Assembly (NCBI RefSeq): GCF_022458985.1
Contig: NC_061779.1
Location: 16,041,001-16,105,000, forward strand
Length of the DNA: 64,000 nucleotides
Reading direction: 5' to 3'
From: Mugil cephalus
Taxonomy: Eukaryota; Chordata; Actinopteri; Mugiliformes; Mugilidae
Numbering within the stretch: position 1 is the stretch's first letter; every line of letters begins with the position of its first letter. Below, piece by piece: positions 31,701 to 42,749 of the stretch. The position numbers and the translations under genes were made by a program. The notes below the pieces were generated by a model. It was not told the origin of the DNA. It searched no databases and saw nothing but the letters and a program-made list of their open reading frames with translations.

Positions 31701-34700
31701 ATCTCCATCTTGTTGTTCTGGATGATTCTGTCTTTCTCTGCCAGTTTGCCATTTTGTTCATGAATGAAGTCGTCTTTGGAAAAGAGGTTGTTGTCAAGCT
31801 CCTGAAGCATAGACTTCATCATGTTGGCTAAAAAAAAATAAAAAAAATGTGATGAGAGAAAATGTGGGCATAAATTAGTATTTAAGCTTTTCAAATAACC
31901 TGCACAAGTTACAGCTGAGATTTGAGCAATCACCTGCTTTGTTGTATTCTGCAACCATCATCTGTCTGATCCTCTGTCTGTTCTGCAGAGCTTCAATCAG
32001 CCGGGGCAGGGTGATGTCATCGTGGGGGTCAGTGAGCTCACAGGAGGGTATAGGTGGGAGGCTGTTCACCAGGTGGTTTAGAACAGAGGCCACGTCTACA
32101 GAAACACAATTAACACCAATAATGTTAAAAGGTGAAAGCACAAGACTGAATAAAAACTTGCTACAGCAGTTATTCAGCTAAAATAACAATAAATGAGGCG
32201 TGAGATGTCTCTCTGGTTCTCTCATGGCATTACTATAAACTTAATTATCCGGCTATGGATCACACATTTCATTTAAGTATCAATTATTTTAAGAAATCAT
32301 TTAACAATCATACATTTGTGCAAATACGCTTCTTTTTAAGTAGTTGAGGTTCTTTTCCATTGCACGTGTGTGACCTTTACCCTTGTCTATTGGGCCGCCA
32401 CGCTCCTCCAGCTTGCGAGACAGTTCATCTTGAAATGCCTGGTTTCTATGACGACGGCCTGGCGTGAAGCCACAGATTGGCCTGTCCATTGGCGAAGCCA
32501 CTTCGACCTCCTGCGTCATCTCCGCAAACCGCATCACCAGCTGTGCGAACAAGAACGCGTCTTGTGTGTCAGACAAAAGGGCAACTTACGAGTTCATGAG
32601 AGCAGCAGCATGAGGACGGGATGAACTCACCAGGGTTTCCTCGTACTCGTCGGCCTTGGGATTGACACAGACAACCATTCTGACTTTTCCCTCTCCGTCA
32701 AAGTAGTTTTTAAACAGGTGGGTAACTTTGGAGTCTCTGTAGGGGACCATCTATAAGAGAAGACCTACATGATCTACTTGGTTCGTGGGTGAAAGTCATT
32801 GTGTAGCATTAGTTTGTCAACACATACCCTGTTTGTGCCACACATCTGGTTCTCTCGCAGTATCTCGATGCACGTCCGCAGATTCAGCAAAGACTGATTA
32901 ATGTTACCTGTGAGCGGCGCAGTAAAATACCATTAACCTCACATGAACCTCAGATGTGGGTAAAGTCAAATCTTGAGGTTTGTTGACAAACCTGCTTCAC
33001 GTATACGAGTTCCTTCTGCCCCCGTCCTGCCCGTCCGCTCGCTTCCTGCCAAGTCAACCAGGCAAAGCTGACTGACGCTCACCTGGCTCTTATCCTGACA
33101 ATCAATATGAGAAAAGACAAAGATTAGTTGTCATGGTGCAATTAACTGCGCTCAACGCTGGAACCTGTAGCTTGGCTTCACTCTCAGCTGACCTGGAGAA
33201 TAGTGTCCCCGTCTGCATCCAGAGGAGCCTGGGCCAGTTTAATAATGAACACGCTGTGTGAGCGACTGGACTCTCTGTTCAGCCGGGTGTTTGCGACCTT
33301 CCTCTTCTTTTGACCTGGAACAACAGTAGCAGCAACTTTTAGAGCATATTTATTCACAGGCACGAGTTTTCACAGGAAGGCTCAACTCTTATAAACTGTT
33401 CCAGGGACAAAATGAGCCGATGCTTCCAAGTATTCTGTGACCTGCTCAGAGAGAAGATTTACTGAGGTCATTTCCTGGACAGAGCCGACCCGGAGGCCAG
33501 CAATTCCAGGTCAGCCACATCTACGTCATCAGTGCAGTGTTATTTCAATTATTCGTAAATTCCTTTTACCCCTTTATACATTTCATATTAGATTTCTCAA
33601 TTTAGAAAACAGCTCACCTTTCCAGAATACTTGAAAAGCCTCCTCAGCAGACTTGACTTCCACCTCCATGCAACCAGCCACATACATGTTGTGGTTCTGG
33701 TCTTCTCTGAGGATTTTAGACTGAGGTGGTCTACATTGGGGAAAAATACACGTCATTCACTGGAGACACGGTGTTGCATCTATCATGCAGTAGATGTATT
33801 GAATGGGGGATTGAATGGGGGCAGGTGCACATGATTGTTGCTCGATTCCAGCCACAGAAAGCAATTAGACATCTACAATCATTGAGCGGTGTGTGAAGCA
33901 ACACCCATGCTAAAACACATTCAGGTCTTTGCCATAACACAGACTACAAGCAGCAGGAGGGTAATGTTGGAATTGTTAAGACAAAGGGAAGGAACACTCA
34001 TCAACACTGGAGACCTGACGTAGCTGCCAACAGCTTTTACACAGAGCTGGGTATTAAATCTCATTATGTTCCTATGTGAATGAGTTCATGTCTGCTCAAA
34101 TTTAAGACTGTTTTATTTAAATTGCATTTTCCCCCCATTCAGTAACTGGAACTATGGTATTAGTGCTACAACTAATGATCGTCACCATCAATTGCTTAAA
34201 GTTTATGGATTAAATTATAAATTAATTATATTTGATCTAAAATATAAACAATATGTTTACATGTTTTTTGTTTACCTACAAAAAAAAAAAAAGTCTTGTA
34301 TTAATTTTATTATCATAAAACAAATTAAGCTCATTTTAATACTCATACAGGGCCAACTGTTTATATAATTACTCACTAAATATTTGCAGATACTGTTGAT
34401 TTACAGCCACTTCACTTTTAACCAGTAGCTGCTTCTTCTAGAAGCTGATTGACAGCTTGGTTTTCATCTACCAGGATAACACATTTAATCATACACCACA
34501 ACTTTAAAAATGTCTCCAGCATAGATGAGGGTCCATTTACAATGTAAACTGCTGATTTGGGTGCAGCATTGAGATTTCAGCTAAACCAGGCTGCTCCTCT
34601 GGTGTACAGGACATACATGAACTCAGTGTTCTGGCGCACAGGTGTGCCTCCACCATTCCACCTAGTAAAAAGAAAACACAGCAATTTTGTCGACTGGCTA

Positions 34701-37885: not shown

Positions 37886-37893
37886 TGACGTCA
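37886..37893. promoter_or_regulatory. Palindromic CRE (tgacgtca)
   Basis: Perfect cAMP-response element consensus in the interval between kif23 and ddb2, about 390 bp before the ddb2 ATG. Confidence 0.4.
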
Positions 37894-37965: not shown

Positions 37966-38015
37966 TGCCAACGATAACACGTTACAAAACAAAGACACGT
38001 GTTTCTCGGTCTCGT

Positions 38016-38058: not shown

Positions 38059-38175
38059 ACCAATCAAACCGATAGAAAGGCGAAGTAGCGGAGTCACGTG
38101 TGCTACAGCCAGCGTTATGCAAACAGAAAACTTGCGGCTGTTTTCAGGCTGTACGACTGAGCAGTGACCAAACAG
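38059..38175 (+). promoter_or_regulatory. ddb2 proximal promoter and non-coding first exon
   Basis: A CCAAT box (38060-38064) and a gtcacgtg E-box (38093-38100, USF/MAX type) precede a short untranslated exon. That exon ends at the donor aacag|gtaag (38175) and splices to the acceptor ttgcag at 38261-38266, ten bases before the ATG. There is no TATA box. Confidence 0.55.
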
Positions 38176-38276: not shown

Positions 38277-41200
38277 ATGAGAACCAAGCCGACAAAGTCC
38301 TCTGAACCAAAGAGTAAAGTGAAGAAAAGACCTCAATCTGGTGCTACGCTCTCCAAAAAACTTGCAGCTAAGAGAGATGGAGAATCATCAAAAGCATGTG
38401 TGTATTATTGATGTGACAGTTTCGGTTTAAGTGACACTGTATGTGAAGTGTTCTGCTGACGACCGTGGGTCTGTGCGACTTGCAGGGCCTCCCGTGAAGT
38501 CTATAGGAGTCAAGAAGAGAGGTGGACATGGGAGCATCCTGCATTACATTTACAGGAGCACTCTGGGTCAGAGTCTGCACTCACAGATGAGACAGGTAAG
38601 AGAGCTGCTCCTCCTTCCTCCTCCGGGCTGCACAGGATGGGACACAGGATACTGACTAGCCTCAGACTTGGTTTGGTGGTTAAAGTAAAGAAACACATGG
38701 ACCGATGGACCCTTCCCATAGGGCATGTCCACAGATCAGACAGAACTTATTTTATATGTTCAGTGTAGCCGTATCCAAAATATATAAAGCATTTGTTTTC
38801 CATCCTCGCTTCATCCTTTAAAAGCCAGATCATGATTTTTTCCCCAAACATTATAGATGCCTGTGTAAACAATGACTATTCATGGATCATGATTTATATC
38901 AAGGATATTATTCTAGTAACAGACAGGGACACACCACCCATCTCAACAGTAGTCTCCTAAAGCTTAGTGTCTTCACTGTCATGTAATCCCAGGCTTCTTG
39001 TGACCCACAGTGTGTTAAAATGATTCCATCGAGTTCCAAGCATTTTGATATACAGATCAGAGTCTAAAAAGAAAGAAAGCAGATTGATATCTCCTCATTC
39101 TGCTCATCTTAATGTAGCATTGGTTGATGCCGTCTCCTCCCAGTGGAAAAGCTTTCTAAGACAAGATCATTAGAGCTAGATCAGTCTAGTATCAGTCATG
39201 TCATCAGTGGCCTTTGTTAGTTGAAACATGTAAAACCCCAATAACTATCCCATGATAGGATGAACACGTATAACTCCTAAAGTCTTGTGCAGATCTGTAG
39301 CTTTAAGTTGTTTTCTCTAACTGGGTTAACAACAGCAACTTTAAGTAGAGTCATATATCTTATACCACTGCGCTTCCACTCCTGTTCTCTCCTCCAGTGT
39401 CTTCAGGAGCCTTTCGTTCGCTCCCTGCAGTCATACCATTTCCACGCTGCTTCCAGTCCCTTCGACCGCAGAATCACGTGTCTGGAGTGGCATCCCACTC
39501 ACCCCACCACTCTGGCTGTGGCCTCCAAGGGAGGAGACATTTACCTGCGTGACTTTGAGATGCCCACAGAGAAAACCTTTATTCAAGGGGTAAGTTCCTG
39601 CATTGTGGTCCAGGATAACGGTAAAATGTCTTCATTAAATTATGCATTACTTTTATTTTTTTTACATATAGAAGGACACTTACTGGCGTAGTAGTCGATT
39701 ATAGAAGCGAACAGTTTAGATAAACTTGATGATGCACTGTTATCGGTTCTTAGATGGGAGCTGGAGACTCAATCACTGACATGAAGTTTAACCAGTTAAA
39801 TCCCAGTCAGCTTTTCACCGCGTCTATGGGGGGTAGGATGGCCCTCCAAGATTTCAGTGGAGCGACTCTAACAGTGTTTGCCAACACAGACACTCTGAAG
39901 TAAGACTGAGTCTCCTCTGTTCCTCTAAGCTGAAGGGTGATGGGTTTGAGTCCGGACCAGTCTAGCCTCAGTCTTCTCATTGCTGGCCCTTGCCGGTTTT
40001 TCAACTTTTGCCTCGTGTTAGCGTTGCGCCGCTAACGTCCCGCCGCCGGCCCTGCGTTTGTGTGCACAGAACGGAGCGGGAGACTTTGTCGGAGGGATGA
40101 AGTTTTGCCCCACGGACTTTTCCAAAGTCTACGTGGCTTCTGGCGAGGGCACACTGACCCTGCAGAGCTTTGAGGGAAACGCATCCACCGTGCTGTCCAG
40201 AACTCCAGACTGTGGCCACGACAACCACAACGTTTGGTGAGAAAACGGCAAAGAAACTGACGCTGGGCAGTGTTTTCACTCACCTTTAGTGTCTCTGCAG
40301 ATAGTACAGACATTCATCTACTACTGTTTACAGCAATCTTATCACACGTAGTGGGATTTTTTTACACCTACAGTGTGCGGTGCTCACTACACTGAAAACT
40401 TAAATTAAAAAAAAATGTCCTCATTACTCTGGACATTCAACAGAACATACTGTCAACATTTTTGGCCGTCATCGTGCACTAGATCTTTCTTTCTACTTAT
40501 GAACAGTTTTCCTAGGAAAACAAGTATTTCCAGTAAAACTGTTAATGAAGAAATCTGGAGATTAACAAGAGTAACAAAGGTTTACAAAGGCCTGACTGTC
40601 TGCATGGTGAGATACCACTAGAGGTCAGTGAGAAGACATCATTTGTGTTGTGTGGGTGAACTGTAAAGTATAACAATACCATGCTGTGTGCAGTGAGATG
40701 TGTAGCTGTCTCATTCATCTAATAACTGTGTATATAAATATATATATGTTCAAGATCCTATAGATTACTCTTAGTCTTTATGTGCTTCATTTCTGTTACA
40801 TCCTGTTAGTTAAAAGAAGTAAATTCACATTGTTTTTAATGTGTTCTTCACAGTTACTGGTACTGCTGTGTCGACGTGTCCGTGAGCCGACAGATGCTTG
40901 TGACGGGCGACAACATGGGGCAGCTCGTACTTCTGGGTTTGGACGGACAAAAGGTGTCTGCGGAGCGAAGAGAGCCGTTCGTTGTTTGCCTTCGGGCGAT
41001 ATTTCTCGTCAGCGTGTTTTAACGTGCTCCGTTTTGACCCTTTAGATTTTTAGCAACAAGTTGCACAAGGCCAAGGTGACCCACGCGGAGTTCAACTCCA
41101 GATGTGACTGGCTGCTGGCGACGGCCTCGGTCGACCGCACGGTGAAGCTCTGGGACCTGAGGAACATCAAGGACAAGAGCAGCTTCCTGCACGACATGCC

Positions 41201-42749
41201 TCACGAGAAACCTGTCAACTCAGGTAACGTCATGACGACTGACGCCTGTGGAGGTGACACCTGGACTTAGACACACTCTCTATTCATCTGCAGGGAAAAT
41301 TGCTTGGACCCAGTTGCACATAAAAAAAATCACTTTTGAGAACCACAAGTAACAAGAAAAGATACAATATAAGTAAAAATCTAGGAAAATAAAATAATAT
41401 AAAGTAAAAAAAGTACATATGAACAAAAGTACAAGAAACTGAGCCAGAAATAAATATACTGTATGTTATAAACACTAGAAGGATTAATGGGGTGCAGTAA
41501 TGTGCATTAACATTAATAATGTGAAGTCTGTTACAGAAAGGTGAGTTGTTGTACAGCTGGATAGAGGAAGGTGTGAATGAAGTCCTGACACACAACCATG
41601 TAGATTTAAATAAAGCATCGCAATGAACGTTGGTATAAGATGAAAGTGATTTCTTTGTCTTTATATTTAGTCTGTTCAGTTTTTCAAATGTGTTTAATGA
41701 AAATGTTCTGTGACATTTATGTGCATTATTAACTGCGTGACCTTATTAAGACATGTAGGATTATTAGTTGTCGTATGTACCAGTTTAACTTTGGTCATTC
41801 TGATGAGGCCGCTGCTGTCGTCGTCTCCTCACAGCCTACTTCAACCCTCTGGACTGCTCCAAGCTGCTCACCACAGATCAGCAGGACCAGATCCGCGTCT
41901 ACTCGTCTCCTGACTGGTCGAAGCCGCAACAAATCATCTGTCACCCGCACAGACAGTTTCAGCACCTCACACCCATCAAGGTTAGTTTTCACTGTGGAGG
42001 AGAGCGTTTATGTTCTCCAGTCCTTCAGTTCCAGGGGCATCGTTGCTCAAAGGTAAATAATAGTCATTTTCAAGTCATTCGCGGTAACAGTGTTCTTCCG
42101 TTGTTGCTCTGCAGGCCACGTGGCATCCTGTGTATGACCTGATTGTGGCTGGTCGCTACCCCGATGACCGCATTCGTTCTTGCGATCAGAGGACCATTGA
42201 CATCTATGACTCCAACACGGCGGAGCTCGTGTGTCAGCTGTACGATCCCTCTGTGTCAGGGATCAAATCTGTGAGTATCATTTCAGAAAACGCTCCAGGA
42301 AAGTAATCTGTGTGTAATCTGTAGTTATTAAGATGATTCATTCTGTTGTTACAGATCAACAAGTTCAATCCGATGGGCAACATGATCGGCTCCGGGATGG
42401 GTGAGTTCTCCAGAAGCTCACCATTGATACGAGCGGTGTTAGTTCACTCGTTTGAATCAAAAAGGTCTCACTTGACGCGTCTCGCTCACGCTCAGGTGTG
42501 ACGGTGCTGGTCTGGGACCACAGCGAGTCGTTGGTTAGCGAGCAGCACAAACTGCAGGAGGAGTCCTCGGCCTCTGTGGGCAGTTTGCGGGGGCAGCGGA
42601 GGAGCCAGCAGCGCTCCGGCCGGGACCGGAGGGCCGGACCCGCTGTGGATGCGAAGCTGAAAAAGAAGCTGGCTTCCCTGGAAGAAACTGAGACCAAAAC
42701 CAAGTACGGCTGTACTAAACAAAAACAGGCGCAGAAGAGGCGGAAGTGA
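38277..42749 (+). CDS. ddb2: DNA damage-binding protein 2 (XPE)
   Basis: WD40 subunit of UV-DDB. It binds photolesions and links them to the DDB1-CUL4 ligase for nucleotide-excision repair. Coding exons: 38277-38397, 38486-38595, 39398-39589, then either 39754-39899 or 40070-40236, then 40854-40953, 41046-41223, 41835-41980, 42115-42270, 42355-42400, 42496-42749. Protein length is 482 aa with the first alternative and 489 aa with the second. Recognisable parts are [10 protein letters not shown], the DDB1-binding WDLR motif in [13 protein letters not shown], and the lesion-probing hairpin motif FQHLTP. After the last blade comes a basic, charged tail of about 70 residues that human DDB2 (427 aa) lacks. 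The second donor (gcat|gtgtgt) is weak but is the only one that fits the phase. AATAAA follows at 42889. Confidence 0.95.
39754..39899 (+). other. ddb2: ddb2 alternative exon A (human-like version)
   Basis: 146 nt, acceptor tcttag, donor ctgaa|gtaaga, entering in phase 0 and leaving in phase 2. It encodes [15 protein letters not shown] through VFANTDTL. With the next exon it reads N-YWYCCVD, matching human DDB2 (SITGLKFNPLN ... VFASSDTIN). Confidence 0.85.
40070..40236 (+). other. ddb2: ddb2 alternative exon B (zebrafish-like version)
   Basis: 167 nt, acceptor tgcacag, donor gtttg|gtgaga, entering in phase 0 and leaving in phase 2, the same as exon A. It encodes [15 protein letters not shown] through [10 protein letters not shown]. 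With the next exon it reads C-YWYCCVD, matching PDCGHENHNVCYWYC in zebrafish Ddb2 as I recall it. It is clearly homologous to exon A (GAGD, MKF, LQ-F-G-TV). Only 170 nt of intron separate the two. Confidence 0.85.

Follow-up and report, generated by a model that had tools for sequence, protein, structure and literature searches.

A homologous, frame-exclusive exon pair in Mugil cephalus ddb2 that would swap a segment of the DNA lesion pocket

The ddb2 gene of the mullet Mugil cephalus, whose product is the first to recognise sunlight damage in chromatin, lies on the forward strand of a 64,000-nucleotide stretch of contig NC_061779.1 (positions 16,041,001 to 16,105,000; hereafter "the window") that is part of C10 among the 24 contigs, 635 Mb in all, of the genome that we searched. 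Spliced translation places its coding region between an ATG at 38277 and a TGA at 42747-42749, and the product is DDB2 by full-length matches to the zebrafish (E = 7e-168) and human (E = 3e-124) chains. Between two constitutive exons, the gene carries two tandem alternative exons that we call A and B:

ends at 38175, + strand: ddb2 leader exon (read by eye)
38277..38397, + strand: coding exon with the start ATG (spliced translation)
38486..38595, + strand: coding exon (spliced translation)
39398..39589, + strand: constitutive exon 5' of the exon pair, ending ...FIQG in phase 0 (spliced translation)
39754..39899, + strand: alternative exon A, 146 nt, of the type found in the solved human and zebrafish DDB2
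39900..40069, + strand: intron between A and B, 170 nt, with a branch-point-like CTAAC 35 nt upstream of B and ~135 nt downstream of the A donor
40070..40236, + strand: alternative exon B, 167 nt, a diverged homologue of A with a 7-residue insertion
40205..40236, + strand: 3' part of exon B, including bases 1 and 2 of the junction codon for Cys, spanning the position of human I200/N201
40854..40953, + strand: constitutive exon 3' of the exon pair, YWYCCVDVS..., with the W equivalent to human W203 (spliced translation)
41046..41223, + strand: coding exon with the K equivalent to human K244 (spliced translation)
41835..41980, + strand: coding exon with the FQH hairpin (spliced translation)
42115..42270, + strand: coding exon (spliced translation)
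42355..42400, + strand: coding exon (spliced translation)
42496..42749, + strand: last coding exon, with the stop TGA at 42747-42749 (spliced translation)

Upstream of the start codon, between 37886 and 38122, we noted a CREB-like TGACGTCA at 37886, E-boxes (CACGTG) at 37996 and 38095, and a D-box-like TTATGCAA at 38115 that matches a relaxed pattern, the strict pattern giving 0 matches; a search for the E2F pattern 5' of the start codon likewise gave 0 matches. Fish ddb2 promoters are described in passages of PMC7891740 as carrying E2F, D-box, E-box and ATF1/CREB elements. Elsewhere in the window, a snoZ30 C/D-box snoRNA (Rfam RF00288, 71.7 bits) is found on the reverse strand at 33442-33537.

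The exon pair had been proposed in a sequence-only reading of the same DNA, and its anatomy holds on direct inspection: the coordinates and lengths of both exons, their AG/GT borders and the 170-nt spacer are all as that reading gave them, and each exon indeed begins in phase 0 and finishes in phase 2, fitting both flanking exons. As had been claimed, either exon alone brings the frame into YWYCCVDVS, with an open reading frame of 482 aa for A and 489 aa for B, and the two isoforms would differ in one propeller segment and by 7 residues in length. Including both exons or neither shifts the frame, again as proposed: with A and B joined, a stop falls inside exon B, and with both skipped, a stop falls 35 codons past FIQG. 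These premature stops precede the last coding junction by 765 nt and 521 nt, respectively, so that nonsense-mediated decay of both products would be expected. A mutually exclusive exon pair that is enforced by the reading frame and goes back to a tandem duplication is well supported by this arrangement; we are highly confident that the pair is real and coding and consider it probable that both exons are used as alternatives.

The homology of A and B, another part of the proposal, could be confirmed directly, with a BLOSUM62 local score of 79 between their peptides compared to a maximum of 48 among 2000 shuffles and 20 identities across 49 aligned columns. Against the parts of Ddb2 that do not overlap exon A, the best score of exon B is 36, which identifies B as a copy of this very blade segment and rules out that it represents another WD40 blade. 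At the DNA level, similarity lies mainly at the 5' ends of the exons (71% across 38 nt, with a spacing of 316), the whole-exon alignment score was equalled by 10 of 300 shuffles, and no convincing similarity was found between the flanking introns, where the observed scores were reached by 299, 249 and 19 of 300 shuffles. This weak similarity of the exons and the lack of clear similarity between their flanking introns suggest that the duplication is old in molecular terms. The two copies are also far too diverged for an assembly duplication to be likely.

No third or decayed copy was found within the window by tblastn with A and B, which recovered only the two exons themselves and, for A, a neighbouring blade (E = 0.002), followed by matches at E = 0.25 (query A) and 0.63 (query B). 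In a genome search with the A isoform, for which the best 16 candidates were scored, we saw neither a second ddb2 nor a retrocopy recording a spliced form, and 9 of 9 matches fell within the ddb2 locus. Exon B has one strong match in the genome, after which come exon A (E = 0.08) and a single further place (E = 0.8). Pfam gave 0 families for the B segment and 3 for A, all far below the cut-off. A match to a viral contig (L002, 1701-1841) falls between the listed reading frames of this phage-like-looking contig and was dismissed as chance.

The differences between A and B fall more densely on silent positions, at about 26 of 34 synonymous versus 47 of 113 nonsynonymous sites (Fisher p = 4e-4, by simple counting with rounded counts), and amount to 44, 42 and 64% at codon positions 1, 2 and 3. 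The synonymous distance lies beyond correction, and this saturation of silent positions backs the earlier view of the tandem duplication as old. A third-position difference of 64% equals the value simulated at d = 1.5. In simple neutral simulations with a single genome and with the whole divergence assigned to B, an open frame and AG/GT borders survived together in 0.8% of 40000 runs when d was 1.0 and in 0.2% when it was 1.5, and 18 of 45 identities were kept in 1 of 3000 runs for the smaller of these distances and in 0 of 3000 for the larger. If half of the divergence is placed on A, with B nearer d = 0.75, the identity is kept in 1.5%, and the fraction of copies both open and spliceable is bracketed by 3.5% at d = 0.6 and 0.8% at d = 1.0; the case is weaker with the divergence split in this way, and neutral retention of B is still unlikely. 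These observations argue for a long past use of B as a coding exon, as distinct from its present use.

The DDB2 sequences that we found in the PDB form two sets, the human chains and 4a08/3ei1, which we take to be zebrafish DDB2. Together with the next exon, exon A aligns to both without gaps (E = 6e-33 for zebrafish, 8e-26 for human), and exon B aligns to both with a 7-residue gap (E = 5e-19 and 2e-15, respectively). The earlier impression that A looks like human DDB2 is therefore borne out, the human chains being A-type, gapless and without the B insertion. Its counterpart, that B looks like zebrafish Ddb2, has to be given up, since 4a08/3ei1 are A-type as well and lack the PDCGH..HNVC insertion; the peptide PDCGHENHNVC is absent from every zebrafish DDB2 chain examined. 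A history in which tetrapods kept A and zebrafish kept B is contradicted by this solved zebrafish protein (in its crystal form), which is A-type like the human one and leaves reciprocal retention unsupported; by these alignments, B is an additional copy that has diverged strongly. It could be a relic, long used but no longer spliced in this species, in line with the presence of only A in the solved zebrafish and human proteins. Yet, B is free of stops and frame damage and has splice scores like those of A, and we regard this alternative as very unlikely.

Quartet likelihoods calculated for mullet exon A, B, zebrafish and human over 45 columns leave the date of the duplication unsettled. In tblastn, B matches human exon A with E = 5.7e-8 and both mullet exon A and zebrafish with E of about 1e-6, and its identities in the 45 columns number 18 with human, 18 with mullet exon A and 16 with zebrafish. 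The best quartet tree puts B with human, though only 1.1 to 1.5 log units over the recent-duplication tree that joins A and B, and the latter has an AU p of 0.37 to 0.42 under three models. B is the most diverged copy in these likelihoods, with a branch of 0.83 to 0.92 compared to 0.20 to 0.25 for A. An accelerated evolution of exon A was considered and rejected: between mullet and zebrafish, 27 of 49 residues of exon A are identical versus 221 of 312 in the rest (p = 0.03), but equally low values occur in 13 of 264 windows outside the exon (in the C-terminal part, the first at index 249), making this only a hint, and between mullet and human the respective values of 27/49 and 161/302 show no difference.

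Exon A aligns without gaps to residues 153-201 of human DDB2. A passage of PMC12606344 describes UV-DDB bound to a nucleosome with a CPD, solved by cryo-EM, in which the dimer is contacted by G154, A155, G156, I200, N201 and W203, with I200 and N201 reading two methyl groups of the CPD; in the 6-4PP and abasic complexes, the same source places I200 and N201 away from the lesion. Five of these six residues (G154, A155, G156, I200 and N201, but not W203) fall in the swapped exon, at residues 2-4 and 48-49 of the 49 in exon A, whose last codon is split across the junction. The hypergeometric probability of 9e-5 for contacts in the exon assumes scattered contacts, which they are not. With five CPD contacts in the exchanged piece, the swap would remodel the lesion pocket along one of its walls. 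This identification of the exchanged exon, by alignment, as a lesion-pocket segment goes beyond the sequence-only reading, from which it was absent, and is our main new point. Outside the exon pair, 12 of the 13 DNA-contact residues named in the PMC12606344 passage are identical in mullet Ddb2 (R112, K132, W203, K244, Q308, R332, F334, Q335, H336, Y356, R370 and I394), the sole change being Y413 to V.

The two ends of the pocket segment read MGAG...LN in exon A, IGAG...IN in human and MGPG...WD in zebrafish. Exon B starts with NGAG, keeping GAG, and carries its Cys/His-rich 7-residue insertion at the position of I200/N201. Read as C-G-H-D-N-H-N-V-C followed by YWYCC (40205-40236 and the start of 40854-40953), this insertion has a spacing for which metal binding is conceivable, though speculative.

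We find it fairly probable that A and B are an old, functional mutually exclusive pair giving two UV-DDB receptors that differ in the lesions they prefer. Once the exon encoding one propeller segment had been duplicated in tandem, a transcript would stay in frame only if it carried a single copy, and the products with both copies or neither would be removed by nonsense-mediated decay. The choice of exon would then swap the segment lining the photolesion pocket, with the G-A-G dimer contact present in both forms. At the other end of the segment, isoform A would finish with L-N, corresponding to human I200-N201, and isoform B would have a loop 7 residues longer there. The remainder of the protein, including nearly all other listed DNA contacts, would be common to both isoforms, and the two receptors would differ in lesion preference with CPD recognition most affected. 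Since I200 and N201 touch the CPD but are placed away from the 6-4PP and abasic lesions by PMC12606344, a sharp prediction follows of which lesion B would read differently.

Taken by itself, a difference in lesion binding between the isoforms seems possible rather than probable to us. The more far-reaching idea of an exchangeable lesion pocket, in which B would read other lesions via a longer, perhaps metal-stabilised (C-x-H-x2-H-x2-C) loop and the ratio of the isoforms would be set by tissue, light or UV, is tentative and rather doubtful. Against two functional receptors we count that the solved human and zebrafish proteins have A only and that B is the most diverged copy, a divergence that may fit lost lesion binding equally well. 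Isoform B could be a full-length protein that binds DDB1 with a blocked or altered pocket and serves as a dose-dependent repair inhibitor or in a DDB1-CUL4 role unrelated to damage, which we consider unlikely. The location of the B insertion exactly at the CPD-reading residues would suit such a protein, as would the finding that B is faster-changing than A, or older; G-A-G is nevertheless kept in B, all four sequences agree in 10 of 45 columns, and 12 of 13 listed contacts are intact in the shared part. Alternative splicing also occurs in the human gene, and human DDB2 splice variants are reportedly dominant negative inhibitors of repair, going by the title of work by Inoki from 2004 cited in PMC2291195, which likewise speaks for an inhibitory isoform B. 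These human variants are reportedly exon-loss truncations, whereas mullet ddb2 swaps a homologous exon and keeps the full length. In a tumour survey, the human DDB2 events are mainly exon skipping according to passages of PMC9858704.

For two receptors to be made, one exon of the pair would have to be chosen. By splice-site matrix scores, the borders of A and B are within the range of other ddb2 sites. Among the 10 acceptors of the gene, those of A and B rank 2nd and 3rd from the weakest, and among the 10 donors they rank 4th and 5th. Weak splice sites are common in regulated exons but are no proof of regulation. With acceptors of this rank and early stops in both the doubly included and the skipped form, the pair might also act mainly as a quantity switch that lowers Ddb2 through decayed transcripts, with protein B of little import. 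Coding capacity need not be conserved in a poison exon, yet B has been under coding constraint, and we think this reading quite improbable.

Returning to a choice between two functional exons, the mutually exclusive vertebrate pair of OGDH exons 4a/4b offers a comparison. Passages of PMC7969005 give a threshold of ~50 nt between branch point and donor for steric exclusion and report distances of 25-41 nt from donor to branch point in human OGDH. In ddb2, in contrast, the best consensus branch-point-like site is ~135 nt away from the A donor, with an AG exclusion zone of 48 nt, so that joining of A to B would not be physically blocked, a further point against the favoured reading. All four borders of A and B look U2-type by eye, and incompatibility between spliceosomes is hence not expected. 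With regard to the competing RNA structures of Dscam-type pairs, single-species folds revealed no significant structure around the exon pair (z = -0.22 and -1.31), and the accessibility of the A donor, computed for contexts of three sizes, was 0.64, 0.25 and 0.49 compared to a background median of 0.40. We also note an imperfect inverted repeat (77%; 39902-39923 with 39954-39975) that covers the A donor and could hide it, though its fold is no better than those of shuffles. What would remain is splice-site competition under trans-acting factors, backed by the decay of wrong products, as passages of PMC6071210 discuss for FGFR2.

Tandem exon pairs are a recognised and mostly ancient class according to passages of PMC9741552, and DDB2 has 0 occurrences in the main text of that paper. 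Among the matches listed for open-access literature joining ddb2 with exon-pair terms, we found no report of the ddb2 pair, which is weak evidence of absence. Exons 5a/5b of CORO6 (coronin-1D) are likewise tandem homologous exons in a vertebrate WD40 propeller and swap almost one repeat (passages of PMC3203266). CORO6 is a different gene, however, with the pair in tetrapods and a 5b-like exon in fish, and the function of 5a/5b was unanalysed at the time (same passages). It is the nearest WD40 case that we found. Exons IIIb/IIIc of FGFR2 swap a ligand-reading segment under established tissue regulation, though in a receptor Ig domain and not in a DNA-damage sensor. They are alternative exons with decay of wrong combinations (PMC6071210), as would hold for the ddb2 pair. 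Fish ddb2 would join this known class of tandem exon pairs, and its special part would be the site that is swapped. If true, an exchange confined to the pocket would be a natural experiment with one gene, one scaffold and two pockets.
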